Positions 6,121-63,355 of a stretch of 64,000 nucleotides of DNA are shown in pieces (the stretch's first letter is position 1; the number at the start of each line of letters is the position of its first letter). The notes beneath the pieces are model-generated. The model saw only the letters and a program-made list of their open reading frames with translations, had not been told where the DNA came from and did no database searches. This stretch comes from Candidatus Nitrosocosmicus oleophilus (lineage in GTDB: Archaea > Thermoproteota > Nitrososphaeria > Nitrososphaerales > Nitrososphaeraceae): NCBI RefSeq assembly GCF_000802205.1, contig NZ_CP012850.1, forward strand, positions 992,001-1,056,000. Reading direction: 5' to 3'. A program made the position numbers and the translations under genes.

Positions 6121-6155
6121 CTTTGTCTATAGTTGTTTGAACCCATATGATATTG

Positions 6156-6200
6156 TGTCTGGCTGACTTCGAATCTATGAGGTAAATGAGATCTGTTAAT
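6156..6200 (+). repeat. Type A palindromic repeat, divergent copy
   Basis: GGCTGACTTCGAATC, TATGAGGTAAATG, ATCTGTTAAT match the A tail. It is preceded at 6134-6149 by TTTGAACCCATATGAT, a module also found before the repeats at 27462 and 53012. Confidence 0.75.
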
Positions 6201-7863: not shown

Positions 7864-7900
7864 ACGGGACCTGGGGATACAGGATGATATCAATCCTTTA
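7864..7900 (+). repeat. Type C palindromic repeat, divergent copy
   Basis: ACGGGACCTGGGG followed by CAGGATGATATCAATCCTT, a C-type hairpin (AGGAT / ATCCT arms). The rest of the 7512-8424 gap has no clear gene; a 61-residue Cys/His-rich frame at 8042-8227 on the minus strand could not be confirmed. Confidence 0.75.
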
Positions 7901-8757: not shown

Positions 8758-8999
8758 GTATAGCCCTTCTAAAGTAATAATCTCCAATATTTCTATTTTC
8801 GACAAAATAGATAACTAATTCTTTTGAGTCTTATTTACACCTTTTCTAATTTCTTGAATTTTTCATCAACAAGATATTCTGCAAGTTTTTTCGTCATCAA
8901 ACATATATGTTTCCTCTTTTTCTAATAATTTGGATATTTGAAAAATATATTATTGTTTATTGTACTCTAAAAATATGTTTCTTCGGGAAAAGACAAGAT

Positions 9000-9035
9000 A
9001 GATGAGTTTAGTAATGGATATATTACATGTCGAGT
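9000..9035 (+). repeat. Type B palindromic repeat, headless divergent copy
   Basis: GAGTTTAGTAATGGATATATTACATGTCGAG keeps the B hairpin GTAAT / ATTAC but has lost the GGGCCCGG head. Confidence 0.7.
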
Positions 9036-9991: not shown

Positions 9992-10030
9992 AAACGGGCC
10001 TGGTGGGCTTCAGTACTAAATCGGTCTTTG
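9992..10030 (+). repeat. Type C palindromic repeat
   Basis: AAACGGGCCTGGTGGGCTTC followed by a decayed C tail (AGTACTAAATCGGTCTTT). It lies 60 bases from the 3' end of the PPOX gene. Confidence 0.8.
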
Positions 10031-10650: not shown

Positions 10651-10697
10651 TGGATCCGGTGGGCTTCGAATCCATGAGGTGTATGGGATCTGTAATT
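10651..10697 (+). repeat. Type A palindromic repeat
   Basis: GGATCCGGTGGGCTTCGAAT then CCATGAGGTGTATGGGATC; head partly changed (GGATCC for GGGCCC), tail good. The rest of 10562-11152 has no gene I can support. Confidence 0.88.
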
Positions 10698-12623: not shown

Positions 12624-12668
12624 TTTGGGTCCAAGGAGTTTAGTAATAGATATATTACAAGTCTAGAG
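12624..12668 (+). repeat. Type B palindromic repeat
   Basis: TTGGGTCCAAGGAGTTTAGT, then the hairpin GTAATAGATATATTAC and AAGTCTAGAG. Further decayed C-like sequence (GACCCACTGGACTTTCTG) follows at 12750, too weak to call. Confidence 0.85.
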
Positions 12669-14930: not shown

Positions 14931-14973
14931 CAACAGGCCTGGTGGGCTTCGTAATAGATATACTACGAGTTCA
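14931..14973 (+). repeat. Type B palindromic repeat
   Basis: CAACAGGCCTGGTGGGCTTC joined to GTAATAGATATACTACGAGT. Here the CTTC of types A/C is joined to a B hairpin, a mosaic form. Confidence 0.9.
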
Positions 14974-15137: not shown

Positions 15138-16190
15138 TTGTTATTTTACAAATCATGGATAGTCTTTGTGTACGCCCTTGCACTTTCCTTGGAATCAATC
15201 ATTATCGAATATCTTACGATATACTTTGTTAGGATTTCTCCTATAGTGCTTTCTTCTTTGAGTATTACGCTATCTGGTATAATGTTGTTATCGGTCGGAT
15301 CTATTATCTTTAAAAATTATAATGATCTTATAAAGATATTTACTAAAAGTTGGAAATCTCTTATTATGGCATCTTTGTCACTTTCATTAGGAATATATGG
15401 ATGGTATGACTCTATAAATCGAATAGGAGCTTCGAAAGAAGCCCTTATAGCTGCACCAATAGAAATCATTCTTATAATTATTCTAGCAAGAGTATTTTTG
15501 AATGAACGATTAAACAAATTTCAAATTGTTGGTATATTTATAGGATCTCTTGGGTTTTTCCTGTCTCTGGCTAGCGACGTGCCTTTTGATTATTTCAACA
15601 ATCCAAATCTCTCAAATTTCATTGTGGGTGCAAATATTAATTCAATATTTCATACAGTCTTCTCATTAGTCAGTTTCGGTGATTTGGAAGCAATCCTTTC
15701 TGCGGTAGGTTTCGCAGTTGGAGTATTATTTCTGGGAAAATTAGTCAAGAAACACTCTTCAATTCAGGTGGCAGGTGCATCCATGTTTCTTTCAGGCATG
15801 ATTCTTGTGATATTCATGGTTCTTTCATTGTTATACGAAACAGCGTTTACACCAGTACAATATTTGAATGAATCACCATCTCAGGTGGAATTGCTGTCGG
15901 TACATAGAAATCTAGTTCTCTTGTTTTTGTTTTCTCTAATTCCATTTATTGGTTCTTTATCTTATGTAATTGGCCTCCGTAGGATTGGTGCTTCTCTTAC
16001 GGCAACTATAGGATCTTCTAATATCGTAATTATACTCGTAATTCAAATAGTCTTAAAAGAATTAGGATATCCTAGTCATTTGCCTGAAAATATATTTTTG
16101 GCCACTTTTGGATGTATCATAGGATTTCTAGGGATTTTCGTAATTCATATGTCTGATCTTATAACCGCAAAATCAAAGAGATATTATTAG
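15138..16190 (+). CDS. EamA/DMT-superfamily permease
   Basis: A 350-residue inner-membrane protein with ten predicted helices arranged as two EamA repeats (first about 5-145, second about 185-340). Landmarks are GIYGWYDSINRIGASKEALI and GSLSYVIGLRRIGASLTATI, the equivalent 'RIGAS' helices of the two halves. DMT proteins export metabolites or drugs; substrate unknown. The middle loop (about 146-185) is longer than usual. The start appears to be TTG 15138; the nearby ATG at 15130 is out of frame. Confidence 0.8.
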   Translation: MLFYKSWIVFVYALALSLESIIIEYLTIYFVRISPIVLSSLSITLSGIMLLSVGSIIFKNYNDLIKIFTKSWKSLIMASLSLSLGIYGWYDSINRIGASKEALIAAPIEIILIIILARVFLNERLNKFQIVGIFIGSLGFFLSLASDVPFDYFNNPNLSNFIVGANINSIFHTVFSLVSFGDLEAILSAVGFAVGVLFLGKLVKKHSSIQVAGASMFLSGMILVIFMVLSLLYETAFTPVQYLNESPSQVELLSVHRNLVLLFLFSLIPFIGSLSYVIGLRRIGASLTATIGSSNIVIILVIQIVLKELGYPSHLPENIFLATFGCIIGFLGIFVIHMSDLITAKSKRYY

Positions 16191-16480: not shown

Positions 16481-16516
16481 ATGGGCCCAGTGGGCTTCCG
16501 GACGATATCAGTCCTT
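16481..16516 (+). repeat. Type C palindromic repeat
   Basis: ATGGGCCCAGTGGGCTTC then CGGACGATATCAGTCCT: clear head and hairpin GGAC / GTCC. Confidence 0.92.
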
Positions 16517-16762
16517 TAATATTGATTCTAATATTTGATAGATTCAAATCTGATGATTATGGTTTTAGCACCATCCAAAGTGGAACATTCCATTTCCTTA
16601 TTACTGATTGAATTTTAAGTAAATAATCCGATTTACTAAAGCCAAAAAATAGGCAATACTCAAATCCCTCATTCACTACATCGTCAACATTATTTTCGTA
16701 TATATTAAACATCCTACGCAGATGCGACCTAAATTTATATAATATCTATCCAAGAAAAAATA

Positions 16763-25005: not shown

Positions 25006-25040
25006 CCGGGTTCGGTGGGCTTCAGGACGATATAGGTCTA
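25006..25040 (+). repeat. Type C palindromic repeat
   Basis: CCGGGTTCGGTGGGCTTC followed by AGGACGATATAGGTCTA; clear copy with slight decay. Confidence 0.88.
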
Positions 25041-25186
25041 TATCATAGATTGTAATGAATGTTGTAAATGTTAATTTCAAATTTTTGAAGAATTTTGGTA
25101 ATTTGAGTTATGAATTAAGAGTTGTTATCATATATCTACGCGTCCTAAACCCTTTAGAGCATATAGAAGATAAAATGAAGAGTTCG

Positions 25187-25817: not shown

Positions 25818-25859
25818 ACGGGCCCGGTGGATTTAGTAATAGATAAATTATGAGTCTAG
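25818..25859 (+). repeat. Type B palindromic repeat
   Basis: AACGGGCCCGGTGG, then ATTTAGTAATAGATAAATTA and TGAGTCTAG. Confidence 0.92.
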
Positions 25860-27330: not shown

Positions 27331-27447
27331 CCATGCCTTATAATAATATGTAATGATTTGGCTTTAGTATAATAGTTATATCAGACTGGGTTATAATTCC
27401 AAACAAATAAAGATCATCTTATAGAGTATCATATTCTGGAATTATTT

Positions 27448-27495
27448 GAATCCATATGGTTAACGGGCCTGGTGGGCTTCTGGACAATATCGGTC
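27448..27495 (+). repeat. Type C palindromic repeat with upstream module
   Basis: TTTGAATCCATATGGT (27447-27462), then AACGGGCCTGGTGGGCTTC and TGGACAATATCGGTCA. The upstream module recurs before the repeats at 6156 and 53012. Confidence 0.88.
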
Positions 27496-27787
27496 ATATA
27501 TCTTGGGATCTACTTAATACTATAGATGTTTCTTTCAAAAGTTTGAAGAAAATTAGTTAAATCTAGCTAATTTTGACGTACATCATAAAAATATTCTTAA
27601 TTTATATCGATATTTTTCATTTCGATTTATTTCTAAATTAGTTCATCCAAGATCCAGTATTTGAGCATGCAAAACAACATGAGTAAATGAGAAAATATCA
27701 CCAATATCAAGAAAATTTTACAATATCACTAATAGCTGATATTTTAATATCTTTATAAACTGACCATCAAAACTATACATTTTACAG

Positions 27788-28333
27788 ATGATAACTAAAG
27801 AAAAATATGACTTGATTGTCAAGTTGTTAAAAGAAGGTCGTACTAATAGAGAGATTTGCAAAATTGCTAGATGTTCACCTAACGAGATTACCCCAATTCG
27901 AAAAACAATCTTTGATGAAAATACAGTTACAGATGTAGACATGAAAGGTAAATCTATCTGCGCTCAAGTATTCGACTTATTAGAAAAAGAGATCTCCTTA
28001 TCCCAAATTGTAATAAAAGTTGATATCGATCCCGAAGAGGCTATGAAATTACAAGAAAAATATCTCTGTGTGTCAAAAAGGGATAAAATCGTCAATTTAC
28101 TAAATGATCAAAAAAGCATGGATTTAACTATCGATATATTAGAATTTCTAAAAGCAAATCCCGATCTTCTGAACAAAATCAAAGGCTTTAAAGACTTACA
28201 ATTGTTGGTTTGGAATTTGATGATTGATAGAAAAGAGATTGAAAATGATATAAAAGTAGATAAAACTCTACTCAAACATTTTGATAAACAAATAGAAAAT
28301 AGACGAGAAGAATTGGGACTTGAAAAGTTTTAA
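27788..28333 (+). CDS. Helix-turn-helix DNA-binding protein
   Basis: A 181-residue soluble protein whose residues 5-40 form a HTH of the sigma-region-4/resolvase type: YDLIVKLLKEGRTNREICKI then ARCSPNEITPIRKTI. A helical domain follows (KSICAQVFDLLEKEISLSQI), and a C-terminal coiled coil (ENDIKVDKTLLKHFDKQIEN). This layout is common in thaumarchaeal regulators found next to mobile or chromosomal border regions. Target unknown. Start ATG 27788. Confidence 0.7.
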   Translation: MITKEKYDLIVKLLKEGRTNREICKIARCSPNEITPIRKTIFDENTVTDVDMKGKSICAQVFDLLEKEISLSQIVIKVDIDPEEAMKLQEKYLCVSKRDKIVNLLNDQKSMDLTIDILEFLKANPDLLNKIKGFKDLQLLVWNLMIDRKEIENDIKVDKTLLKHFDKQIENRREELGLEKF

Positions 28334-28430: not shown

Positions 28431-28472
28431 GCGGGCCCGCTGGGCTTCGTAATAGATATATTACGAGTCTAA
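28431..28472 (+). repeat. Type B palindromic repeat
   Basis: GCGGGCCCGCTGGGCTTC joined to GTAATAGATATATTACGAG; a CTTC-B mosaic like 14931. The remaining gap 28334-28738 is plain AT-rich DNA. Confidence 0.92.
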
Positions 28473-31523: not shown

Positions 31524-31566
31524 GGCGGGCCCGGTGGGTTTAGTAATAGATATATTACGAGTCTAG
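31524..31566 (+). repeat. Type B palindromic repeat
   Basis: GGCGGGCCCGGTGGGTTTAG and GTAATAGATATATTACGAG; the best B copy. The rest of 31224-31699 has no gene. Confidence 0.95.
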
Positions 31567-31699: not shown

Positions 31700-32707
31700 T
31701 TAATTTATAACTGTGAGAGGCTTTCTTCCATGTAATAATAGATTAATGTTATTTAGAATAATATCTGTTGTTGTATTTGTTGCTTCTAATGTCCATCCTG
31801 CAATATGGGGAGTATATACAAAATTATCTAAATTCAACAATTTATCAATAGGATTAGCTGGTTCCTCATAGAATACGTCAAAGCCTGCTCCCGCAATTGT
31901 TCTTGAAGTCAAAGCATTGTATAAAGCATCTTTATTTACTATAGATGCTCTTGAAACGTTTATCAGAAAAGAAGATCTTTTCATACGAGCAAATTCTGTT
32001 CTTCCTATCATATTTTTTGTTTCTAAAGTAAGAGGAGTATGGATGGAAACAACATCGGCTTTACCTAAAGTATTTTTTAAATCGGTAATACCTTTAATTT
32101 CATCCACCAGTAAGCATTCTGAAACGCAATATTGAAGAGTACTAATGTCTTTAGATGTATTGTAATTCATAGTGACCTTATTCCTTAATTCAGGTCTTTT
32201 TGTAACTGATATGACATTCATACCAAAAGCCTTAGCTCTTTTTGCAACCTCTATTCCAATTGCTCCCAAACCTATTATAACCATTGTCTTATTATATAAT
32301 TCAGTTCCTAAGACGTTTACAACTCTTCGTTCCTTTATTCCTTTTTCTGCACCTTTTATGTTTTTAGCAAGATAGATCATAAGGAATATGGTATGCTCAG
32401 CCACAGAGATATTGTTGACATGAGGAACATTAGCTACATAAATAGATTTTGAAGCACAGTATGATACGTCCACATTATCCACTCCTGTTCCTATTTGTTG
32501 AACAAGTCTTAATTTAGGACAGAAATCGATTATCTGTCTATCCAATTGTCCTAGACCATTTATAAGAATGTCTGAATTAGATATTTGATTTCTAATTGGT
32601 TTATTGTAATCTACTCTATATGCTGTTAGACCCAAAGGTTTAAGCTTACTACAAAGTTCTGCTTCTAATCCTGCTGCATAAGTTAACATACTGATTTTCA
32701 AAGTCAA
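31700..32707 (-). CDS. D-2-hydroxyacid dehydrogenase (PGDH-like)
   Basis: NAD(P)-dependent reductase of 2-oxoacids. The catalytic triad is Arg253 (INVSRASIV), Glu282 (FDVFYEEPAN) and His301 (YTPHIAGWT); the dinucleotide loop is IGLGAIGIEVAKRAKAFG at about 145-162. The residues after the second strand (SVTKRPE) lack the acidic residue of NAD-specific forms, suggesting NADP(H). 335 residues, no ACT domain, so not the full SerA. TTG start at 32707 with AAGGAG at 32715-32720 (minus strand) seven bases away. The first 25 codons are copied at 60221-60300. Confidence 0.88.
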   Translation of the reverse strand: MTLKISMLTYAAGLEAELCSKLKPLGLTAYRVDYNKPIRNQISNSDILINGLGQLDRQIIDFCPKLRLVQQIGTGVDNVDVSYCASKSIYVANVPHVNNISVAEHTIFLMIYLAKNIKGAEKGIKERRVVNVLGTELYNKTMVIIGLGAIGIEVAKRAKAFGMNVISVTKRPELRNKVTMNYNTSKDISTLQYCVSECLLVDEIKGITDLKNTLGKADVVSIHTPLTLETKNMIGRTEFARMKRSSFLINVSRASIVNKDALYNALTSRTIAGAGFDVFYEEPANPIDKLLNLDNFVYTPHIAGWTLEATNTTTDIILNNINLLLHGRKPLTVIN

Positions 32708-33119
32708 ATATCATCTCCTTAAAGCTTGTATACTCCTGTCTCCCTAGAAAAATAACAATATACGTTTAAATCCTCAATTCTTTGTCTGAAAAATTTAGAT
32801 AGATCTACAATAAAAAATATTTTTAAAATTGGACTCTCTATCGCATGAAGATTTTGTGTTATGTTTTTGGAAATGATAGTTCTTTTGTTAGGATAACTGA
32901 TATGGTACGTTGACACTAATATCAGTAAACTCTTTGAAATAATGGCAATAAATAATATTAACAGATAACTAATTGACATACTGTACATATATAATAGGAT
33001 TATATTTAATTTAATCTTTATTAGTATTGGGTCTGTTTAGCAATGGATAGCATTTTCATTAACTGATAAATACTAGGAGGTACTAAAATATATTAAATTA
33101 ATAGTAAAATACAAAAAAA

Positions 33120-33590
33120 TTAATGTTTAAAGATTAGTGTCTGTACCGAATTGGGTTCAACTTCTAAGTTGTTCATTACTTTATATTCTCCATCAGGAAA
33201 ATAAGCTATTATCACATATTTTCCTGGATTCAAATTTTGAAATACATACTTTCCTTCTTGTGTTAAGTCTGTCCTTGTTGTTTTAGATAGGCCATCTTGT
33301 CCTGCGGCTATCACAATCGTTCCAAGGGCTGGTAATCCTGATGAGGTAAAAACATATCCATTCACAGCTCCTAGTCCATTATCATATACTGGTAATGGAT
33401 CAAAGATAGACCCCATTGTAGCATTAGGCGATGAAACACTATCCAGGAGATATCCGATAATTAGAATCGTTGATATCATTGTTACGCTAATGGTTATTGT
33501 TTTCCTGTGTATTCTAAGTAGATTTAGTATATGTGACTGCTTTGTTTGCTGTATTTCATTGTGTTTGTGTTTTATTGTGATATATTGCAT
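33120..33590 (-). CDS. Membrane-anchored carboxypeptidase-regulatory-like beta-sandwich protein
   Basis: A 156-residue protein: a cytoplasmic basic N-terminus, one membrane helix at about 31-50, then an extracellular prealbumin-like domain. The core GAVNGYVFTSSGLPALGTIV, EGKYVFQNLNPGKYVIIAYF and NSVQTLIF match the CarboxypepD_reg/SpaA-type fold (strand-rich, PGKY turn). Such domains act as adhesins or stabilisers. The paralogue at 60706-61176 shares the layout and the strings MGSIFDPLPVY and PGKY. Start ATG 33590. Confidence 0.75.
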   Translation of the reverse strand: MQYITIKHKHNEIQQTKQSHILNLLRIHRKTITISVTMISTILIIGYLLDSVSSPNATMGSIFDPLPVYDNGLGAVNGYVFTSSGLPALGTIVIAAGQDGLSKTTRTDLTQEGKYVFQNLNPGKYVIIAYFPDGEYKVMNNLEVEPNSVQTLIFKH

Positions 33591-33800
33591 TGTAATAACA
33601 ATATCATATAATAATCATTTTATTTAAGTCTTTGTGATTGCTTTCCAAAATCTATATGTTGTGTTCATTTTTTTAAAATAATTCTATGAAGTAATAAGTA
33701 TTGTTATAAATTTTTGTATATTTACTATTGAAGGTGTTAAGAATAACAATCAGTAGACTTCATTTGGATATTCTTGTTGAATTAAAGTGGTGATAGAATT

Positions 33801-33852
33801 ACAGCGGGCCCGGTGGGCTTCGAATCCATGTGGTACATGGGAACGATTAATT
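33801..33852 (+). repeat. Type A palindromic repeat
   Basis: GCGGGCCCGGTGGGCTTCGA then CCATGTGGTACATGG. First of four modules in tandem (A, B, E, D) between 33801 and 34180. Confidence 0.95.
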
Positions 33853-33901
33853 TATTAAATTTTTGTAGAGATCAATGAGTCATTTCTGGCATTAATTATA
33901 A

Positions 33902-33942
33902 GGCGGGTCCGGTGGGTTTAGTAATAGATATATTAAAAGTCC
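33902..33942 (+). repeat. Type B palindromic repeat
   Basis: GGCGGGTCCGGTGGGTTTAG then GTAATAGATATATTAAAAG. Fifty bases after the A copy; the same A-B pair recurs at 61366-61505. Confidence 0.95.
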
Positions 33943-33984
33943 AAAATTCCGAATTAGTTATTCTGATTTTGAAGGTTTTGGTTT

Positions 33985-34130: not shown

Positions 34131-34180
34131 AGGTTCGGGGCAAGAGTTTCCCGTTGTGCTATCACCGCTAAAATTGGATT
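34131..34180 (+). repeat. Type D repeat
   Basis: GGTTCGGGGCAAGAGTTTCC then GTTGTGCTATCACCGCTAAA; matches 37433 and 53041. Weaker similarity to the 53 kb copy goes on to about 34280, where GGGTTGGGATTTGAACC looks like a reversed tRNA T-arm. Confidence 0.7.
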
Positions 34181-37432: not shown

Positions 37433-37484
37433 GTCGGGTGGGACTTAGGCCAGAGGTTTCCGTTGTGCTATTACCACTAAAAAA
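37433..37484 (+). repeat. Type D repeat
   Basis: GTCGGGTGGGACTTAGGCCA then GTTTCCGTTGTGCTATTACC and ACTAAAA. Sits between divergent genes. Confidence 0.7.
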
Positions 37485-41311: not shown

Positions 41312-41349
41312 AAACGGGCCCGGTGGGCTTCAGGACGATATCGGTCCTC
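41312..41349 (+). repeat. Type C palindromic repeat
   Basis: AAACGGGCCCGGTGGGCTTC plus AGGACGATATCGGTCCT, the best C copy with a perfect AGGAC / GTCCT stem. Confidence 0.95.
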
Positions 41350-41614
41350 TGGAGTAGGTCCTAATGCTTTTATAAATATCATGAATTAAATGTTTCTCTA
41401 TCTTCATAGTTACAATATATATAATTGTTAGAGGAAGAAAAGTTTAGTAAAGCGTTTAATTAAATTTTTGATGTTATCATAATGAATAAATCATTCTATT
41501 TCAATTCTGCATATTGTTTCTAGGAATGATCTGTAAATCTTGTTGATAAATTAGTCATTGATTTTTGAATTTCATTAAAATTCGATAAGAATTTCAATAA
41601 AAAAGAGGTTTTAA

Positions 41615-42500: not shown

Positions 42501-42518
42501 AAGCAGTATACAAATCAA

Positions 42519-42566
42519 ACGGGCCCGGTGGGCTTCGAATCCATGAGGTACATGGGAACTGTTAAT
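42519..42566 (+). repeat. Type A palindromic repeat
   Basis: ACGGGCCCGGTGGGCTTCGA, hairpin CCATGAGGTACATGG and GAACTGTTAAT: consensus copy. Confidence 0.97.
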
Positions 42567-42637
42567 TTATTAAATCTATTATTTAGTAAATATTGATTTC
42601 AAAATTATCCCAAAAAATACCTTGTGTAATGGACTTA

Positions 42638-44080
42638 TTATACGGTATCATTGTCAGAAGATGTAATCTTTACGACTGAACTATTCTCAAAATCCTCACC
42701 TTCCTTTATTAGCTTGTCTATGGTTTCTGAGGTATAATCTGCCCACTTATTATATACACTATGTATATCGTCCTTGCGTTCTATAGTCACTATTCTTTTT
42801 AAATCAAATCTGCCTTCGATAAGATCCTTATAGGTTCTATCCTTTCCCGTTCGTTTTTTACTTTCAATTACTGTACTTAATAGGACTTCGAGATTATTTT
42901 GGAACGATTCATATTCATTTTGGTCCTTGATGTGTATTTCTGCAATCTCTTTGGTTTTCTTATAGAGATTCAAATAGTCCGTAACTAGTGCAGCAATTTT
43001 TTGATCATATTCTGTTTTGTCACTATGTGTGAGATCACTATTTCGTTCCTTAATTCCATCGTAGTCTGATGGAATAGCCTTTTCTACCGATGGCCAAACG
43101 CCAATAATATAGACCTTCAAGTCTGGAACTAAAGCATCTTTATTTCCTTTGCCTACATCTTTATACCAGTAATCACGATGTGCTTGCAAAAGCTCCCTTA
43201 ATGGCGTATTGCTTAAGATTCCGCCATCACATAATTTATGCCCGTCTACTTCCTCATAGTCAAAGTACAATGGAAATGATGCACTAGCCATTACATGTTC
43301 CTTCATAATACCCTCGTCATATTGTATGATATCATCTACATTTTTTGATAAATCCGGATCATAAGAATCCAATACAGATTTCAGTAAATAGCTATCAAAG
43401 GTAACAGGTTTACCTTGTTGTACATCAACACTTACTGCAAGGAATCTCGGTTCATGTGCTTCAAAACTTGTAGATAAGGGAAAATTAACAAATTTATCCC
43501 CATGACGGTCTCTGTGTTCAAGACTATTTCTTAATGGAGAATTGCTATAACGGGTCCAGAGATTTGTTGGTGGAAATAATGGATTATTATCAAAAAATCG
43601 ATAGTCAAGTTGTGGGAACGGAAAGGAGGGTGAAAATACATTTGGTACACCATATGCAAAAAAATACTTTGTAGAGTAATATCGTCTTGCAGCCTCCTCA
43701 GATGCAATCTTGCTATTGCCATTCCACAGTTCGTAGTATTTTCCTCCCCACCATTGGTAGATCTCTTCCCACCATTGCGTCCCAAATTTTGCAGCTATGG
43801 GCGTATGGGTAGATAAGTGCTCTCTCCAGTACTCCTCGAGTTTTTCAGCTGAACCCTTCCATGTTTTTTTTTCTTTAACATGACTTGTCAATATGGCTGC
43901 GTTTACAGCTCCAGCTGATGTACCTGCAACAATATCAAACATCCTTGATTCCCAGTTTGGATCTTCTTTTTTAATAATTTCGTACAATTTTTTAAAAACC
44001 CCTGCTTCGAAAGCCCCTAAAGCAACACTACCTTGCAAAATCAGGGCTCTTTGTGTAGTTGGAATTTCTGAATTAGACAT
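42638..44080 (-). CDS. Patatin-like phospholipase
   Basis: A 480-residue lipid acyl hydrolase. The Ser-Asp dyad is Ser55 in DIVAGTSAGAVNAA (GxSxG) and Asp285 in GHKLCDGGILSNTPL (DGG). The oxyanion loop near the N-terminus reads LILQGSVALGAFEAGV, where G-x-G-x-x-G is loosened. A further strand, PDLKVYIIGVWPS, follows. The C-terminal 150 residues are helical and specific to this subgroup. No signal peptide, so it acts on cytosolic or inner-face lipids; ether-lipid archaea have few esters, so the substrate is unclear. ATG 44080. Confidence 0.88.
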   Translation of the reverse strand: MSNSEIPTTQRALILQGSVALGAFEAGVFKKLYEIIKKEDPNWESRMFDIVAGTSAGAVNAAILTSHVKEKKTWKGSAEKLEEYWREHLSTHTPIAAKFGTQWWEEIYQWWGGKYYELWNGNSKIASEEAARRYYSTKYFFAYGVPNVFSPSFPFPQLDYRFFDNNPLFPPTNLWTRYSNSPLRNSLEHRDRHGDKFVNFPLSTSFEAHEPRFLAVSVDVQQGKPVTFDSYLLKSVLDSYDPDLSKNVDDIIQYDEGIMKEHVMASASFPLYFDYEEVDGHKLCDGGILSNTPLRELLQAHRDYWYKDVGKGNKDALVPDLKVYIIGVWPSVEKAIPSDYDGIKERNSDLTHSDKTEYDQKIAALVTDYLNLYKKTKEIAEIHIKDQNEYESFQNNLEVLLSTVIESKKRTGKDRTYKDLIEGRFDLKRIVTIERKDDIHSVYNKWADYTSETIDKLIKEGEDFENSSVVKITSSDNDTV

Positions 44081-44483
44081 AGAATGATTGACCTATCCAA
44101 ATGTTTGAGCAATTATCATTTCGTTCATATCGCAAAGAATGTCCTCCATTCAATTTTGTCTCGATATGATTCAAACAAAGCCATTGAACTAATATCATCC
44201 GAGGAATTGTAGATATTGGCATTATTGCCAATTTGTGGAATTGAATCACAAGATTATTGAAATAAGCTTGTTAATAAATATTTGTTCATAAAGTCTATTA
44301 ATTATTATGGATTATTGCAATTGGGTATTATTGGCAAAGGAGTTTAAATTCAAGAATTTTCTGAATGTAGCACAGTTGGTTTTAATACATCCGTGAAGAC
44401 AGTGTTCAAGGTTGAATACGATCCTGACTACTATTTTATAAAAATTAATGAAAACAGCCTAAACTACTTGGTGTTAACAAAGT
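44081..44483. other. Intergenic, no gene seen
   Basis: 400 AT-rich bases between two minus-strand genes. No repeat of the A-E family. Confidence 0.4.
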
Positions 44484-45362
44484 CTAGCCATTCGTAACCT
44501 CAAGACTTTTTACTTCGTTCCAGTATTTTTCAAATAAGATTTGCTGGACTAATACTTTGTTTGAATTGTTTGTAAAGGTCCCTACGAATGAACCATTATT
44601 ATCTTGTCGGATTTGAAGAATATATTTTCCATCAAAACAGATAATCATTTCATTGAATTCACCTAGTCTATCCGAATATTCTAATTGGATCAAACTAGTC
44701 CTATCGTTATTATTCAAAACTTCAATTTGATTTTGTATGTGGTGATCATAGTTATCCACAAGGATTTTACTTACTATATTATCTTGTAATTTAGCATTTA
44801 AATTAATTAACATATTTGAATCGAATATGCGTTTCAAAATTTCATAATTAGAAAATATTGTTAACTCCTGTTTGGCGTGCTCAACAAGAAAATTTATTTC
44901 GTTTTGAATGTTCTCAATGCCGAGAAAGGATTTAGTATATCCATCATTATTTTGAAATTCTAATTCTTTGATTCGTGTAGTCAAAGGTTTAGCCATATTC
45001 CACAAATCATTATAGATAGACAATTGTTTTTCAACTAAAGACTTTGAATTGCTAAAAAAGGATTGTAAAAGTTTGCCGTTATCTCTATCCTGCATTATGA
45101 CTACGGTGTATAATCTTTCGTCATACAAACCAAAATTACCTCTCAATCCCTCCAAATGCCTAATTTCTAAGAAATCTAGTGTTTTCAGAAAGTCTATGTT
45201 CTCAGAAGTAGCCTCAACTAATAATTTGCCTGACAATTCTTTTTCTTTTACCATTCTTTGTTTAATGAGTTCTAATGTCTCTACATAATATTTTGAGGCC
45301 CATTTACAGATTTCTGCGTCCCCAATAAGCACAAGCAGTTTTCTCCCATTTTGTAATGCCAA
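44484..45362 (-). CDS. Sensor-like protein, possibly frameshifted at its start
   Basis: A 292-residue soluble protein: KLLVLIGDAEICKWASKYYV, then KGKLLVEATSENIDFL-like beta-alpha units, NIQNEINFLVEHAKQELTIF and GKYILQIRQDNNGSFVGTF. This order resembles the TrmB-type/PLD-like sensor regions of thaumarchaeal signal proteins. It opens at TTG 45362. Just upstream, in another frame, codons read NDLVDRLLFNQLRESGFRSP and EISDIVYDQDQFLELI up to the same point, so a one-base shift near 45365 may have split off an N-terminal part. Confidence 0.5.
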   Translation of the reverse strand: MALQNGRKLLVLIGDAEICKWASKYYVETLELIKQRMVKEKELSGKLLVEATSENIDFLKTLDFLEIRHLEGLRGNFGLYDERLYTVVIMQDRDNGKLLQSFFSNSKSLVEKQLSIYNDLWNMAKPLTTRIKELEFQNNDGYTKSFLGIENIQNEINFLVEHAKQELTIFSNYEILKRIFDSNMLINLNAKLQDNIVSKILVDNYDHHIQNQIEVLNNNDRTSLIQLEYSDRLGEFNEMIICFDGKYILQIRQDNNGSFVGTFTNNSNKVLVQQILFEKYWNEVKSLEVTNG

Positions 45363-45721
45363 TATGTATTAACTCAAGAAATTGGTCCTGATCATAAACT
45401 ATATCCGAAATCTCAGGACTTCTAAAACCGGATTCCCTTAATTGATTGAAGAGTAATCGGTCCACTAAATCATTTACTTTAATATTTGTTAAAAACCTCG
45501 CGGTCTTAATGACTGACAGAGTTTATCTTCCACATATCTTTCACCATCGCATAGATCCGTTGGGATACGGTTCAAGATTAACTAAAATCCCAACTCTATA
45601 TCATCAAAACAGATGAAAATTGATGGTTAAGATATGACATAAATATTCTGACGGCTTTATTTTACCTTACGCAGTGTATTAATGTGTATAGTTATATATA
45701 GTCAAGAGTAAGATAATATAA

Positions 45722-46255
45722 ATGAGTTCTTTAGACGTCTCCAATATTAATTCAAAAAATTGTGTGTACGGTTGCAACACCAAAATCTACTGGAATACCC
45801 TAAATAGCGAATATTTAGAGGTTCTTACGAAGAAGAAACATTTTTGTCCAAACAGATCAATCGATAAGAATAGATCAGGAGGTGCAGCGACAATTAACAA
45901 TCATATCTCATCAAAGCCCCCATTTTACAAAAATGATCGCGTGAATAATTATAACAGCAAGAACAATTACAATTATAAAAAATCAGGGTATAACTCAAAT
46001 AACAAACAGCCTATGGATAACTCTTTGGAAATACTGCAAGGATCACCCCTTACGATCACAAAACAATATGAGGTGTTATCTGATTTGATAAAGGAGTTCA
46101 ATGGGAAAACTCATGGTTCTCAATCACACACTTTGCCAGATAACTCCTTACAGATAGTAGTCTATTACGAAGTACCGGAAGGAACGAGAGATGAAATCAA
46201 AAGAATGTTTCAGAGCGGTACAAAAAATGAAATGGAACTTCCTCATCAACTATAG
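45722..46255 (+). CDS. Hypothetical protein with possible N-terminal zinc finger
   Basis: A 177-residue protein. The N-terminus NCVYGCNTKIYWN with HFCPNR about 27 residues on gives three Cys and one His that could bind zinc. The middle (residues 55-100) is Asn/Tyr/Lys-rich and disordered. The end holds SDLIKEFNGKTHGSQ and NSLQIVVYYEVPEGTRDEIK, a small folded domain. Such proteins recur in Nitrososphaerales; no role known. ATG 45722, 63 bases before the surface protein at 46318. Confidence 0.6.
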   Translation: MSSLDVSNINSKNCVYGCNTKIYWNTLNSEYLEVLTKKKHFCPNRSIDKNRSGGAATINNHISSKPPFYKNDRVNNYNSKNNYNYKKSGYNSNNKQPMDNSLEILQGSPLTITKQYEVLSDLIKEFNGKTHGSQSHTLPDNSLQIVVYYEVPEGTRDEIKRMFQSGTKNEMELPHQL

Positions 46256-46317
46256 CAAATTAGTTTTACAGAAAAAAGTTTGGAAATTCATAAATTAATC
46301 TATAAATTCTAAATATT

Positions 46318-47544
46318 GTGAGATATGTTGCTGGTTTATTTATTATTTCTGTGATATCGGCTATCCTACCTTGTGATTTTGTTTTTGGAGAACCCTCATT
46401 GAGAATAACTGATTGTATACAATCAAAACATCAACTAAGGTATAATGTATACGCAGATGGTTTTATTCCTAATACAAGACTAGTCCTGTCGTACATTATG
46501 CCAGATGCCGAAAGACCTAACAGTGCTAGCTCTTATACCGATTCTTCTGGAAGTTGGAAATTTGAAGGAGCAGGCTATACTTCGTCTGTGGGAGTATCCA
46601 ATGGAACCACAACATTTGAGGCATTTAATGTAGATGAAAAACGAAATATGATCCCTGATGGTCCATATGCAACAGCAGAATTAATTACTCCATGTCCTTT
46701 TGTATCTGATCCGCCTAATACAGAGGTATATGCATCTGTAAATGACAGGCAAATTTTTGATGATGACGAAGTAAGCTTGAATTCTATTCATTTTACATAT
46801 TACATAAGAGACAATTTTGCACCTTATGCACAATTTGATTGTAAGTTAGACGAAGAACAATATGAGCATTGTACAATCGAAAGATGCGAAATACCCGGTA
46901 CATGTATTCCTAATACGTTATGGTATGGCGAAAAGGATTATGATAATCTTCTCCCTGGACAACATACTTTCATGGTCAGGGCTACTGATGATGCAGATAA
47001 TACCGATCCAACACCTGCCGAGTTCACATGGATAATTTTAAAACCCGTTGCTGATGCTGGAAATGACCTCACTGTAAGTAGTAATGACATAGTCACTTTG
47101 AATGGCGGTAACAGTTCGGATCCGACTGGATCTTCCTTGAATTACTTTTGGAATCAAACTGCAGGACCAGAAGTCACTTTACGTGATTCAACGTCATCGA
47201 ACCCAACCTTTACAGCACCTGAAGTAAATGAACAAACTGACCTCAGATTTGAACTAACTGTAGTCAACGAAGAAGGTATTGTTAGCGAGCCGGATGAAGT
47301 AGTAATAACTGTAAACCCCATTGTTATACCTCCACCGACAGAAGAACCCCCTAAAACAGTCGGTGACCTTATTAAAGGAATTATTCAGAATCCCCTCGAC
47401 GTAACAAACTCTATTAAATCTGCAGATAAAATTTATGATATTTTAACAGACAATGACCGTGACAATGATCAACTTGTTTGCGACTTGATAAATTCAGAGG
47501 ATGAACATACTACATTTAACATTAGGAACATTCTTGATTGTTAA
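46318..47544 (+). CDS. Secreted PKD-type surface protein
   Basis: A 408-residue exported protein starting at GTG 46318 with a signal peptide (LFIISVISAILPCDFVFG). Residues about 130-240 form an Ig/PKD-like domain with Cys pairs (CKLDEEQYEHC, RCEIPGTC) and LLPGQHTFMVRATDDADNTD; residues 243-335 are a classic PKD/REJ domain (VADAGNDLTVSSNDIVTLNG, SSDPTGSSLNYFWNQTAGP). A Pro-rich linker and a polar tail with a last Cys follow. Probable cell-surface adhesin or matrix protein. Confidence 0.75.
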   Translation: MRYVAGLFIISVISAILPCDFVFGEPSLRITDCIQSKHQLRYNVYADGFIPNTRLVLSYIMPDAERPNSASSYTDSSGSWKFEGAGYTSSVGVSNGTTTFEAFNVDEKRNMIPDGPYATAELITPCPFVSDPPNTEVYASVNDRQIFDDDEVSLNSIHFTYYIRDNFAPYAQFDCKLDEEQYEHCTIERCEIPGTCIPNTLWYGEKDYDNLLPGQHTFMVRATDDADNTDPTPAEFTWIILKPVADAGNDLTVSSNDIVTLNGGNSSDPTGSSLNYFWNQTAGPEVTLRDSTSSNPTFTAPEVNEQTDLRFELTVVNEEGIVSEPDEVVITVNPIVIPPPTEEPPKTVGDLIKGIIQNPLDVTNSIKSADKIYDILTDNDRDNDQLVCDLINSEDEHTTFNIRNILDC

Positions 47545-47753
47545 TTGAGAATTGTTAGAAATTATAGTCATGGAAACACATGGTGGAATTAAATATACAA
47601 AATGTTATGGAAACTATATTAGGTTTTATCATAAATACGATTTAAGGTTTAAGAATACCGTGTATCCATAATCAACTTTCACCATAGTTACAGTTTGGTT
47701 TTAAACCTTTATTTTCCAAAAGAATTGAATGGGAACGTACAATATGATAAGAA

Positions 47754-47794
47754 TTCAATGGGCTTCGAATCCATGAGGTACATGAGAACTGTAA
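47754..47794 (+). repeat. Type A palindromic repeat, head lost
   Basis: TTCAATGGGCTTCGAAT and CCATGAGGTACATGAGAACT; tail well kept, GGGCCCGG replaced. Confidence 0.88.
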
Positions 47795-47841
47795 GCTGAT
47801 AAATATTTAGGTTTAAACTATAAACAGATCAAATATACTGT

Positions 47842-53011: not shown

Positions 53012-53072
53012 TAATTTGAACCCATGTGATTAACGGGCCCAGTGGTTTCCGCTGTATTTTTACCACTAAAAG
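53012..53072 (+). repeat. Type D repeat with upstream module
   Basis: TTTGAACCCATGTGATTAAC, GGGCCCAGTGGTTTCCGCTG, then TACCACTAAAA. AGTGGT and ACCACT can pair. Weaker similarity to 34180-34280 continues to about 53165. Confidence 0.82.
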
Positions 53073-54330: not shown

Positions 54331-54349
54331 TGCGAGTTAAATGGTTGAC

Positions 54350-55414
54350 ATGAAACATAAACCATCAAATTACTCTAATCTTCCTTTTTCCATATTTCTT
54401 TTTGTTGTGTTCACTGTTAGTACTTTGTACTTTTTGGGGTATCAACAAAACAATAGTGTTTATGCGCTCAATCAACAAGACTATAAACGATATTTTCATT
54501 TTGTTAGTGAACAAGACACAGAATGTACAGAAAATTTGCCTGAAGAACAGACACAAATGAGTGAATCTGTCTGTATGCAGATATGTCCCACTGATCCAAC
54601 TTCTGCAATTCCAGAACAGTGTGTCCAACAACAACCCCAAGGAGAGGATCAATCATCAAAGGAAGAGCAACAACAACCGCCTCTAGACCAACAGCAACAA
54701 CAACCGCCTCTAGACCAACAGCAACAACAACCGCCTCTAGACCAACAGCAACAACAACCGCCTCTAGACCAACAGCAACAACAACCGCCTCTAGACCAAC
54801 AGCAACAACAACCGCCTCTAGACCAACAGCAACAACAACCGCCTCTAGACCAACAGCAACAACAACCGCCTCTAGACCAACAGCAACAACAACCGCCTCT
54901 AGACCAACAGCAACAACAGCAACCAGAGAGCGATTTTACTAGTCCAAACAATGCCTCTACCAATAAATTTGTTGGTGTACAGAATTTTGGACCAAGCAGT
55001 TCAACAAATGTGAATTTTTCACCCGCTTCTGAATGTTACAGAGATTTAACTGGAAAGTGGATAGGAAATGATGGCGGAAAGTATTACATTAGACAAATAG
55101 ATAAGACGGTTTGGTGGTTTGGATTTAATACCCTTTCAATTGGAGAAGGTTTTAGCAATGTTTTTCATGGCATTAGGAGTGGGAATGGTTCAGGCGACCC
55201 TACGATATTTGGTCAATGGCAAGATGTTCCTCTGGGAGGAACCAAAGGCAGCGGATCGTTTGATATTCAAATAGATCCAACAGGGACTAAATTAACAAAA
55301 TTCAATTCGAATGGTGATTTCTTTGGTGCATCAGAATGGACAAAGTCTGATCCCTGTTCAAGAATATCTTCAGGTGACATCACAGGTCCGAGTGGAGAAG
55401 TCCTAAAACACTAA
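54350..55414 (+). CDS. Secreted protein with Gln/Pro repeat and W-rich domain
   Basis: 354 residues. A membrane/signal segment (LPFSIFLFVVFTVSTLYFLG), a Cys-containing polar region (SVCMQICPTDPTSAIPEQCV), nine exact 9-residue units PPLDQQQQQ, and a C-terminal domain CYRDLTGKWIGNDGGKYYIR, VWWFGFNTLSIGEGFSNVFH, GQWQDVPLGGTKGSGSFDIQ that is a paralogue of the protein at 53587. Probably a surface-exposed domain on a flexible stalk. Start taken at ATG 54350 from the TATA spacing (54341 is also possible). Confidence 0.75.
   Translation: MKHKPSNYSNLPFSIFLFVVFTVSTLYFLGYQQNNSVYALNQQDYKRYFHFVSEQDTECTENLPEEQTQMSESVCMQICPTDPTSAIPEQCVQQQPQGEDQSSKEEQQQPPLDQQQQQPPLDQQQQQPPLDQQQQQPPLDQQQQQPPLDQQQQQPPLDQQQQQPPLDQQQQQPPLDQQQQQPPLDQQQQQQPESDFTSPNNASTNKFVGVQNFGPSSSTNVNFSPASECYRDLTGKWIGNDGGKYYIRQIDKTVWWFGFNTLSIGEGFSNVFHGIRSGNGSGDPTIFGQWQDVPLGGTKGSGSFDIQIDPTGTKLTKFNSNGDFFGASEWTKSDPCSRISSGDITGPSGEVLKH
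54677..54919 (+). repeat. Minisatellite: nine 27-base units
   Basis: Nine units starting every 27 bases (54677, 54704 ... 54893), each CCGCCTCTAGACCAACAGCA plus ACAACAA, with no visible base differences. In-frame, coding PPLDQQQQQ. The perfect identity points to recent copy-number change. Confidence 0.95.
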
Positions 55415-56489: not shown

Positions 56490-56657
56490 AGGGTAAGGAT
56501 TTCTCCAAATGATAATAAATTCATTTGTTTGTTCTTTAATAGGTATTGATTGATAATCTTTACAGTTGAGTTTTACATAGCTGCATGATATTTATTCTGT
56601 ATTAATAAAAAGTATTAAATTAGTCAATTATAACAAAATGTCAACAACCCATTCTAG

Positions 56658-56701
56658 ATTCAGTGGGGTTCGAGTCCATGAGGTACATGGGAACTATTAA
56701 T
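56658..56701 (+). repeat. Type A palindromic repeat, head lost
   Basis: TTCAGTGGGGTTCGAGTCC and ATGAGGTACATGGGAACTAT; followed 60 bases on by a type C copy. Confidence 0.9.
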
Positions 56702-56762
56702 TAAATAAAATCTTATTTCAAGGAAACATATTGATCCTTTGCTAATAAGAGAAAAGATTACA

Positions 56763-56795
56763 TGGGGCCCGGTAGGCTTCAGGACGCTATTATCA
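56763..56795 (+). repeat. Type C palindromic repeat
   Basis: TGGGGCCCGGTAGGCTTC then AGGACGCTATTATC; head good, hairpin decayed. Confidence 0.85.
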
Positions 56796-56996
56796 ATTTG
56801 TATAGTATTCCAGATTCATAACTTGAGAAAATGTTTGTTATTAAAACATTAATTCGAAATTGATTCTACAAGATATTAAAACCCCTTGTCGATTTCTTCA
56901 ATTCTTTATTGTAATTTCTATTTAGTAAAACGTAGACTGACTAGATTATATATTAATAACATACGTTTTAAATCATTAATATTTAATAATCTAATT

Positions 56997-59772: not shown

Positions 59773-60220
59773 GTGCTAGGGTCGTATGTACGTGCTGACA
59801 ATATCGAGAATGGCAATATATATGCTACAATGCAACAGAGACTTGGTGGCTCTATTTCAATCGTTATTATAGATGGGAAAACCAATGATGTCATTGATAA
59901 AATTGTCATCGGAGATCAACAAGAAGATCTCGATCGCCAGGCCATCGCTTATAATCCAACTAATGGTAACATGTATATTGTTAGTCCTTCTATAAACGAA
60001 GTAGTTATTCTTGGTGGATCCACTAACACGGTTATAGGAAAACTAATGTTGGTAACAAGCCAGAAGCTATTGCATTTAATGAGAAAAACGGCAATATGTA
60101 TGTATTATGTACTGGCTCGCAAGTTATTAGTGTAATAGATGCGAAAACCGATAAGGTTATTGAAAATATTCTAGTAGGACCAAATCCTACTGATATCTTG
60201 TATAATTCAGCCAATGATGC
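59773..60220 (+). pseudogene. Truncated and frameshifted YVTN-type beta-propeller
   Basis: Reads ADNIENGNIYATMQQRLGGS, ISIVIIDGKTNDVIDKIVIG, AIAYNPTNGNMYIVSPSINE; after a one-base shift near 60043 it continues NVGNKPEAIAFNEKNGNMYV and SQVISVIDAKTDKVIENILV, GPNPTDILYNSAND. These are three blades of an archaeal surface propeller. Start, most blades and the end are missing; the 3' side breaks exactly where the segmental duplication begins at 60221. Confidence 0.85.
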
Positions 60221-60705
60221 CAAAGGTTCAAGCTTACTACAAAGGTCTGCTTCTAATCCAGCTGCATATGTTAACACACTAATTTTTAAAATTAACTATC
60301 AATCTCCTTAAGGATTGTATACTTTGTCTCCTTAGGGAAATAACAATCTCTTTCAAATCCCCCGATTCTTTGTCTGAAAGATCTAAAGGGATCAACAATA
60401 AAAAATATTTTTGAAATTGGACTTTCTACTGCATGAAGATCTTGCGTTTTGTTTTTGGAAATGATAGTTCATTTGTTAAAATAACTGATATGGTACGTTG
60501 ACCCTAGCATCAGTAAACCTTTTGAAATAGTGGCAATAAATAATATTAAAGAATAGCTAATTGATATAATATATACATATATCAGAAGATTATATTTAAG
60601 TTTTATAATAATTGGGTATCTATACCAATATACAACATTTTCATTATTTGATAAATAATGGGAGATACTAAAATATATAGAATAAATAGTAAGACTGAAA
60701 AAAAA

Positions 60706-61176
60706 TTAGTATTTGAAAATTAGTGTCTGCACCGAGCTGGATTCTACTGGGATATTATTTATCACCCTGTACTCACCATCTGGGAAAAAGGCTATAATCA
60801 TATATTTTCCTGGTTTTAAATCTTGAAGTACATATTTCCCATCATGTTCCAAGCCTACACTCACTGTCTGAAAATGTCCCCTCTGATCTGCTGCAACTAT
60901 GATTGTTCCAAGAATGGGATTTTGAGGTGAGCCAATTACATATCCGTTAATAGCCCCGAAACCATTTTTATAAACTGGTAAGGGATCGAAAATAGAACCC
61001 ATACTTACATTAGGTAACGGGACACTTCCTAGAATATAAGCTAACGTTATAAAAATAGTTATTGTTGCTATAACTATACTAATTATCTTTTTCTGTACTT
61101 TTATATTGCCTCGGACCTTTAATTGCTCTTGATATAAATCTCCATAGATTTTGTGTTTATTTGTTATTAATTGCAT
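60706..61176 (-). CDS. Membrane-anchored carboxypeptidase-regulatory-like protein (paralogue)
   Basis: A 156-residue protein equal in length to that at 33120. One membrane helix (about 31-50, IISIVIATITIFITLAYIL), then VSMGSIFDPLPVYKNGFGAI, NGYVIGSPQNPILGTIIVAA, HDGKYVLQDLKPGKYMIIAF, SSSVQTLIF. The frame has stayed open while its surroundings drifted, so both copies are probably under selection. Outer-face beta-sandwich, possible adhesin. ATG 61176. Confidence 0.75.
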   Translation of the reverse strand: MQLITNKHKIYGDLYQEQLKVRGNIKVQKKIISIVIATITIFITLAYILGSVPLPNVSMGSIFDPLPVYKNGFGAINGYVIGSPQNPILGTIIVAADQRGHFQTVSVGLEHDGKYVLQDLKPGKYMIIAFFPDGEYRVINNIPVESSSVQTLIFKY

Positions 61177-61365
61177 TTATAACACAATATCGATATGCGT
61201 TGATCATATTAAAAGTTTTATTATTATTTCTAAAATTTGTATCACATTCATATATGAATGTAATAATTGTAAGAAATGACGTCAAAATATAAATTTTTTA
61301 TATGGATTTCAGAGTCCTAAATATCAAAATATTTGTCATCATCCATTCGATTTAAGATCTTTAAG

Positions 61366-61410
61366 GCATTTGTGGGCTTCAAATCTATATACTCCGTGGG
61401 AACTGTTACT
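61366..61410 (+). repeat. Type A palindromic repeat, divergent
   Basis: GGCATTTGTGGGCTTCAAAT then TACTCCGTGGGAACTGTTA; counterpart of 33801 in the segmental duplication. Confidence 0.8.
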
Positions 61411-61462
61411 TCAATAAAATTTTTTGAGATCACTGAGCCATTTATGACAGATGTTAATTATA

Positions 61463-61505
61463 AGGCGGGTCCGGTGGGTTTAGTAATAGATATATTACGA
61501 GTCTG
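61463..61505 (+). repeat. Type B palindromic repeat
   Basis: GGCGGGTCCGGTGGGTTTAG then GTAATAGATATATTACGAG; counterpart of 33902 and right boundary of the duplication. The gap to 61808 has nothing more. Confidence 0.95.
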
Positions 61506-61808
61506 AATTTCAGGCTTGAAAAAGATATGAACTCATTGTTATATATCGATCTGAGACCATATTTACTGTAATTCATATCTACGATTTCAAAAGACTAATT
61601 ATGAAGGGCAGGTCAGAGAAGAATCAAGATCAATAAAACTGTTTTTGATAATTAAGCAAGAGATCTGTCCTTATAATAAAACAAAAGCAATAAATCAATT
61701 TAGGTATAACACCCCAGGTATGCTCATTCATCATCAAAATAATGATTTAAAAGATGATAACAAAAAACCCAAGAATGTTTATTTTCCACCTGCTATTAAC
61801 TAATAAAT

Positions 61809-63307: not shown

Positions 63308-63355
63308 GCGGGCCCGGTGGGCTTCGAATCCATGAGGTACATGGGAACTGTTAAT
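63308..63355 (+). repeat. Type A palindromic repeat
   Basis: GCGGGCCCGGTGGGCTTCGA, CCATGAGGTACATGG, GAACTGTTAAT; consensus copy identical over its core to 42519. Confidence 0.97.

Follow-up and report, generated by a model that had tools for sequence, protein, structure and literature searches.

A tRNA-derived repeat of Candidatus Nitrosocosmicus oleophilus as a probable attachment-site junction in an array built by serial integration at tRNA-Arg(TCG)

How can a short repeat that looks like the reversed 3′ end of a tRNA come to recur among the genes of an archaeal chromosome? The repeat in question occupies positions 42520-42566 of a 64-kb window (the whole stretch of DNA analyzed, genome 992001-1056000) of Candidatus Nitrosocosmicus oleophilus, and its sequence agrees with an earlier description. 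This sequence-only reading left two origins side by side, a family dispersed as SINEs are and attachment sites of tRNA-targeting integrases. To our knowledge, the way in which soil ammonia-oxidizing archaea gain accessory genes is a largely open question. Here we argue that the repeat is very probably an attachment-site junction, belonging to an array that grew as one unit after another was integrated site-specifically at the 3′ end of tRNA-Arg(TCG). The source tRNA, the uniform orientation, the anatomy of the junctions, the exchange of neighbors between species and the integrase adjacent to the tRNA are the supported parts of this explanation.

Where does the tRNA-like sequence come from? The head of the repeat (CGGGCCCGGTGGGCTTCGA, window 42520-42538, plus strand) is the exact reverse complement of the final 19 nt of tRNA-Arg(TCG), a real gene on the minus strand at genome 1132849-1132923, 98 kb downstream of which the focal repeat lies, and the ATCAAA just outside the 19-nt match is also common to both. 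The "reverse tRNA" look of the head therefore arises because tRNA-Arg(TCG) is encoded on the minus strand. If the 17-nt end of this tRNA is searched with up to 3 mismatches, 25 matches on the plus strand and none on the minus strand are found in the 183-kb array, while 137 kb of neighboring control DNA gives none on either strand; counted in this manner for 30 of the 37 tRNA hits of the genome, tRNA-Arg(TCG) outscores every other tRNA tested in number of array matches. The first impression of a reversed tRNA 3′ end is thus borne out, and comparison with the tRNAs of the host, as the sequence-only reading had proposed, singles out one of them, Arg(TCG), so that a matching host tRNA, on whose absence the idea was to fall, does exist. 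Its argument that A-C mismatches in the T-stem make the repeat no functional tRNA is weaker than it was put, because the T-stem of the parental tRNA itself has a non-standard pair in the cmscan alignment. An Rfam scan of the window gave no match. The 39-nt form of the repeat has three copies in the window at no more than 1 mismatch and none in 100 shuffles, each of the three best type A copies being within one base of the 39-nt query, and the 12-nt core GGGCCCGGTGGG occurs 27 times in the window at up to 3 mismatches against 3.7 expected. Over the 3.43-Mb genome, the 16-nt head has 14 occurrences at up to 1 mismatch, 13 of them on the plus strand; one is the reverse-complemented tRNA 3′ end, and another three, at 648 kb, at 1366 kb (the sole minus-strand match) and at 1834 kb, fall outside the array. 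Two related 45-nt repeats at window 39720 and 33984 begin with 17 nt that are like the 3′ end of tRNA-Val(GAC), with 1 and 3 mismatches, respectively.

What stands on the two sides of a head? At each junction the order is the right-end flank of one unit, the tRNA 3′ end (head), and the left-end tail of the next unit. At least four types of tail, A (GAATCCATGAGGTACATGGGAAC), B (GTAATAGATATATTACGAGTC), C (AGGACGATATCGGTCC) and D (TTTCCGCTGCATTTTTACCGC), combine with several recurring flanks, F1 (ATCAAAC), F2 (ATTACAGC), F3 (TATAAGGC-like), F4 (TTTGAACCCATATGATTAAC) and F5 (GGGAACGTAC), and by sequence tails A-C contain short inverted repeats. What had been called type A is therefore just one kind of tail; at least three others follow the same tRNA-derived head. 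The T-loop pieces that had been listed as relatives of the repeat (TTTGAACCCATATG) correspond to F4: those near 27447 and 52994 are present, but as near rather than exact matches, and they are not heads but right-end flanks just to the left of a head. This same flank adjoins tRNA-Arg(TCG) itself in three other species. For the focal junction, F1 (AATCAAA before the head, 42512-42519, plus strand) is the right end of the left unit, with the same ATCAAA that adjoins tRNA-Arg(TCG), and tail A (GAATCCATGAGGTACATGGGAACTGTTAAT, 42537-42566, plus strand) is the left end of the right-hand unit, one of 13 A junctions in genome 880001-1200000. From junction to junction this unit covers 42521-47750, and has an ORF for a patatin-like phospholipase (42638-44080, minus strand) and three more ORFs of at least 100 amino acids. 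At position 1512 of locus L091, a copy of tail B has the four-base loop inverted between the arms (GATA to TATC).

The other junctions of the window are all on the plus strand. From the left end, F4 with tail A behind a decayed head (6155-6200) is followed by tail C (7865-7900), tail B behind a decayed head (8995-9032), F1 with tail C (9995-10030), tail A (10651-10695) and tail B (12627-12665). F2 meets tail B at 14934-14972, where a 1.5-kb unit begins whose one ORF (15138-16190) encodes an EamA transporter, and F1 meets tail C at 16482-16520; tails C (25007-25042) and B (25819-25858) come next, and then F4 with tail C (27464-27500), F2 with tail B (28432-28470), F3 with tail B (31526-31565), F2 with tail A (33805-33850) and again F3 with tail B (33904-33942). 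A weak junction-like place with tail D (34137-34172, 21 bits), a tail D junction with a different head (37446-37482) and F1 with tail C (41315-41350) lead to the focal unit, whose right-hand neighbor begins at a junction of F5 (GGGAACGTAC...) and tail A lacking the tRNA acceptor half (47751-47795). Further on, F4 with tail D (53034-53071), tail A (56656-56700), F2 with tail C (56764-56800), a decayed tail A (61365-61410), F3 with tail B (61466-61505) and an F3-like flank with tail A (63309-63355) are found.

Some features of this anatomy do not fit easily to serial integration. A fixed pairing of tails and flanks was sought, and left tails and right flanks turned out to pair loosely; fixed two-ended elements are thus not obvious. 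At several A junctions AATTC stands in place of the tRNA acceptor half, which counts against the explanation because simple insertion at the tRNA does not yield such junctions. Also hard to fit are gene-less units of near-constant length: after 7 of the 13 A junctions of this genome the next junction comes within 99-109 bp, as at window 33805-33904 (99 bp), 56656-56764 (109 bp), 61365-61466 (102 bp) and four more places in the genome, and gene-less A units of about 100 bp are present in relatives, too. A 1.3-kb duplication (window 32632-33949 and 60220-61511, 72% identical) has an A-B junction pair within both copies.

How are the junctions arranged relative to the tRNA? Within 880001-1200000, every one of the 29 heads besides the tRNA itself (up to 4 mismatches in 17) is on the plus strand; they start at 984 kb, run up to the tRNA and do not continue past it. 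Tails without a clear head extend back to about 954 kb. The lone minus-strand head match, at window 33796, coincides in part with a plus copy, GGGCCC being a palindrome. Profile HMMs of the four tail types, with matches under 17 bits or short of the tail left out, detect 50 junctions and the tRNA in this genome (G000), none on the wrong strand, and there are likewise no wrong-strand junctions in the relatives G004, G001, G003 and G012, in which the direction is given by the tRNA. These orientation counts rest on G000, G004, G001, G003 (its 1890-kb piece) and G012; G002 and the 875-kb piece of G003 were excluded, as the direction of the array would there be set by the hits themselves. The array is fine-grained, with 44 units in the 149 kb from 984 kb to the tRNA and a median junction spacing of 1,975 bp (97 intervals, all regions), and only 1 of its 44 junctions falls inside an ORF of at least 100 amino acids, against 27 expected for random points; the lists of 44 junctions used for this and for the alignment-end and attC tests omit the six weakest and most distant ones, before 984 kb. 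The farther a B tail lies from the tRNA, the more mismatches it tends to have (Spearman 0.76, 23 B tails), and the trend is weaker for the 18 better B copies (rho 0.56) and for 25 heads (0.43). One 24.7-kb stretch without a detected junction counts against serial integration. Could the repeat have spread instead to intergenic sites in a SINE-like or MITE-like manner? Its head is indeed derived from a tRNA, and the junctions do lie between genes. However, the copies of the array have one orientation, are placed on one side of the parental tRNA and end at it, the sequences differ on both sides of the head, and the neighboring control DNA has none, so that we consider such spread extremely improbable. 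A SINE or pseudo-tRNA origin was set aside on account of the uniform orientation and one-sidedness, and the case shows that a tRNA-like dispersed repeat can be mistaken for a SINE-like family.

If units were added one after another at the tRNA, what should be seen in relatives? The gene for tRNA-Arg(TCG) is present in 14 of the 15 genomes of the genus, and tail B with the head is found in 11 of the 15 (this one included) and in 12 of 70 genomes of the family, the twelfth, in another genus, having six copies. Three contigs of the named collection, all from MAGs and labelled Nitrosocosmicus, Nitrosopumilus and Nitrososphaerales, have it as well. The flank that abuts the tRNA depends on the species: it is F1 here, F4 in G001, G003 and G004, and F3 in G012, and G002 also differs. 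F1, F3 and F4 all recur at internal junctions of the array, and about 275 bp to the left of the F4 junction at window 53034 match the tRNA-abutting DNA of G001, G003 and G004. Homology between related units often begins or ends at a head. The first 1.8 kb of the focal unit are present in G012 with the same head and tail A and another left flank and neighbor; the unit to the left of window 27464 is shared between G012 and this genome up to the same head, after which tail B and tail C follow, respectively; for one unit of G004 the match runs from junction to junction and the neighbors differ; and two 1,056-bp copies, 99.9% identical, begin exactly at a head, the second terminating inside a truncated gene. 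The right end that bears the integrase adjoins the tRNA here, and its homologue in G003 stands 33 kb away from the tRNA, with an A unit after it, the left part of which is that of the unit at window 47751 (a TspO ORF just inside the same left end), standing after F1 in G003. Some short units are flanked by junctions on both sides in two species. When alignments of at least 150 bp are considered, 14 of 244 distinct ends fall within 20 bp of a junction against 3.0 expected, and only 1 of 2000 shifts gave a number as high. Most alignment ends between related arrays are nevertheless off the junctions, which speaks for heavy later deletion and rearrangement and against a simple history of addition.

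Is tRNA-Arg(TCG) the only target? In the 20 kb downstream of 36 further tRNA hits, 23 head matches have the orientation of the tRNA and none the opposite one; they stem from 7 of the 36 hits, and the overlapping stretches of tRNA-Gly(CCC) and a partial copy count some places twice. The head of tRNA-Arg(TCT), CGGGCCCGAAGGGCTTC, is followed by tail A at 2.6 kb from that tRNA in this genome, and by tail B in G004. It is therefore the target that supplies the head, and the incoming unit that brings the tail. Downstream of tRNA-Gly(CCC) at 3387913 and tRNA-Lys(CTT) at 1344188 there are more arrays of tRNA 3′ ends in the same orientation with other tails, and in the tRNA-Gly array the shared stretch extends through the T-arm. 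Outside the array, at genome 1364969-1366735 (minus strand), two array segments (99% and 88% identical to array copies) are joined at a head. This composite at 1365.9 kb would suit homologous recombination between the direct repeats of head and tail, rather than an integrase, as what shuffles and deletes units, and the repeats are indeed direct and numerous. Still, heads have only about 17 nt in common, the flank next to the tRNA itself is not the same in all species, and tails A and B stand behind the own head of a second tRNA, so that we think this explanation improbable.

Which enzyme may carry out the integration? Beside tRNA-Arg(TCG), about 54 bp from its 3′ end, the ORF at 1131482-1132795 encodes a tyrosine integrase of 437 amino acids. 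The catalytic set of tyrosine recombinases is R-K-HxxR-H/W-Y, and R170, K195, H304, R307 and Y337 (R, K, HxxR, Y) are invariant in 13 homologues of this protein, H329 being nearly so. PF00589 is detected in 9 of the 13 homologues at E up to 0.01, while the tRNA-adjacent protein itself scores under the Pfam cut-off and is recognized as a PHROG integrase at E 2e-5. Genome searches with PF00589 and PF16795 were empty in the array and missed it (PF00589 gave one locus, outside the array); its position, and then its own sequence, led to it. Relatives exist in 14 of the 15 genomes of the genus, and 8 hit rows in this genome include some beside other tRNAs (516184, 2219331 and 2596654); within the array, the family is represented by the tRNA-adjacent integrase and a short decayed piece at 1060621, with no others. 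The integrase had no match in plasmid and phage collections and no convincing sequence match in PDB, and scans of viral contigs yielded 0 matches for each of tails A, B and C, so no free virus bearing such ends turned up. The integrase belongs to an intact element of 14.7 kb (1118187-1132850) with integrase, MCM and PolB genes at the tRNA, whose left junction (1118187) has a degenerate head although the element should be the newest, a point against serial addition.

The idea of attachment sites of tRNA-targeting integrases is thus backed by the tRNA source, the orientation and the junction anatomy, and the array was probably formed as follows. An incoming unit would recombine with the tRNA gene in its 3′ part, around the T-stem and T-loop, with the crossover probably in the shared GGTGGGYTT region. 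The tRNA would be restored at each step, and a copy of its 3′ end, the head, would be left at the far side, followed by the left end that the unit itself brings (tail A, B, C or D). The next unit would enter between the tRNA and the previous unit, and junctions would accumulate in one orientation with the oldest most distant from the tRNA. Tyrosine integrases of occasional complete elements, such as the one now adjacent to the tRNA, may do the cutting.

What do the units carry? The 44 units between 984 kb and the tRNA include 11 without an ORF of at least 100 amino acids, 11 with one and 10 with two, and array genes run on both strands (68 plus, 45 minus). Pfam families were scanned in 80 array ORFs outside the intact element, picked mainly by length (50 from the window and 30 from 1055-1111 kb). 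Proteins of metabolism, transport or stress are numerous: CorA, sodium/calcium and sodium/hydrogen exchangers, EamA and major intrinsic protein for transport; alcohol and aldehyde dehydrogenases, FMN reductases, nitroreductase, isochorismatase and patatins among enzymes; and further OsmC, TspO and universal stress proteins. Many of the scanned ORFs had no Pfam hit. None of the 80 belongs to an integrase, replication or virion family at E 0.001; the sole mobile-element family above the cut-off is a DDE (IS) transposase, and a weak resolvase-type HTH appears twice. An insertion sequence of about 1 kb with a DDE transposase has three identical copies in the array (genome 984980-985978, 1091552-1092548 and 1107291-1108290; L050, L055 and L056), and near-identical relatives are at 1374456-1375471. 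The resolvase-type (HTH_7) paralogues, at window 27788-28333 and genome 1110583-1111137, each have an F2-B junction immediately to their right, and in G004 a B junction likewise comes after a homologous stretch; these proteins are possibly an accessory factor of the units. Inside the ORF at window 54341-55414, which has no Pfam hit, there is a tandem array of a 27-nt sequence with ten registered copies (54609-54972).

The lack of integrase, replication and virion families in the scanned cargo, together with its many metabolic, transport and stress proteins, suggests an integron-like cassette array served by integrases in trans, and we lean slightly towards regarding the many units that lack an integrase as mobile cargo cassettes moved in this way. 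Alternatively, the same array may have been accreted from complete integrase-bearing elements only, with interiors deleted later and small units as leftovers, no action in trans being required. The intact element at the tRNA, the decayed integrase piece at 1060621, the decay of old junctions, the second 1,056-bp copy that stops in a truncated gene and the minority of alignment ends at junctions are all in accord with such a history, which we regard as plausible and yet rather doubtful, since the 80 scanned proteins lack the families mentioned above and include one IS transposase beside many proteins of metabolism, transport and stress, in two species some short units have a junction at either end, and the G004 array has no integrase of this family. 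Is it then a true integron? The array does have short, often single-gene units, its repeats are direct, and one end carries an integrase gene. The attC box consensus is RYYYAAC...GTTRRRY, but none of the 44 junctions has such a box pair (0.37 expected by chance), genes run both ways, the docking site is a tRNA gene, and the integrase is not recognizably IntI; we give a true integron almost no credence and rejected the attC idea. On the reading with action in trans, the genus might keep a tRNA-anchored, integron-like platform of gene capture, in which dozens of small cassettes, mostly integrase-free and with genes for metabolism, transport and stress, are docked serially at tRNA-Arg(TCG), a common pool of ends (tails A-D, flanks F1-F5 and others) is recognized in trans by a tyrosine integrase family, the order of units is the order of capture, and smaller arrays exist at other tRNAs. 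Our belief in this wider proposal is evenly divided. If it is true, a one-way ordered record of insertions at one tRNA, with ends shared across species, would be a readable log of gene capture and a directly testable route of it in archaea.

How does the array compare with known systems? Tycheposons of Prochlorococcus, which are tRNA-associated cargo elements moved by tyrosine recombinases, bear a likeness to it. Integrated elements of Thaumarchaeota, as described in excerpts of PMC6563490, enter tRNA genes at the 3′ end, have short att repeats (median 17 bp) and include tandem insertions; the cryptic ones span 2.6-98 kb and by definition have an integrase in common, unlike the small integrase-less units here, and no long array of such units was found in these excerpts. 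Tandem insertions in archaea are also known from a part of PMC8371274. Archaeal integrons, according to a portion of PMC9668308, are likewise cassette arrays, mostly without a nearby integrase, but they have attC/attI and IntI, whereas attC box pairs are absent here. PMC11559005 and PMC7603488, on this clade and its relatives, gave no match to the word "integrase" and, in the portions consulted, no tRNA-linked arrays, and similar arrays may be in print elsewhere. The closest known system is the ssrA islands of Dehalococcoides, which, in the excerpted text of PMC3146451, lie in tandem within 100 kb downstream of the RNA gene, are bounded by 20 bp direct repeats of its 3′ end, carry cargo genes, and have an integration module in 16 of 31. 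The likeness consists in the tandem arrangement on the downstream side of an RNA gene, in short direct repeats that match the 3′ end of this gene, and in the cargo, while a bacterial tmRNA gene and a serine recombinase are used there against an archaeal tRNA gene and a tyrosine recombinase family here, and 31 islands over several strains compare with about 50 junctions in one genome, at a median spacing of 2 kb and with at least four tail types (PMC3146451).
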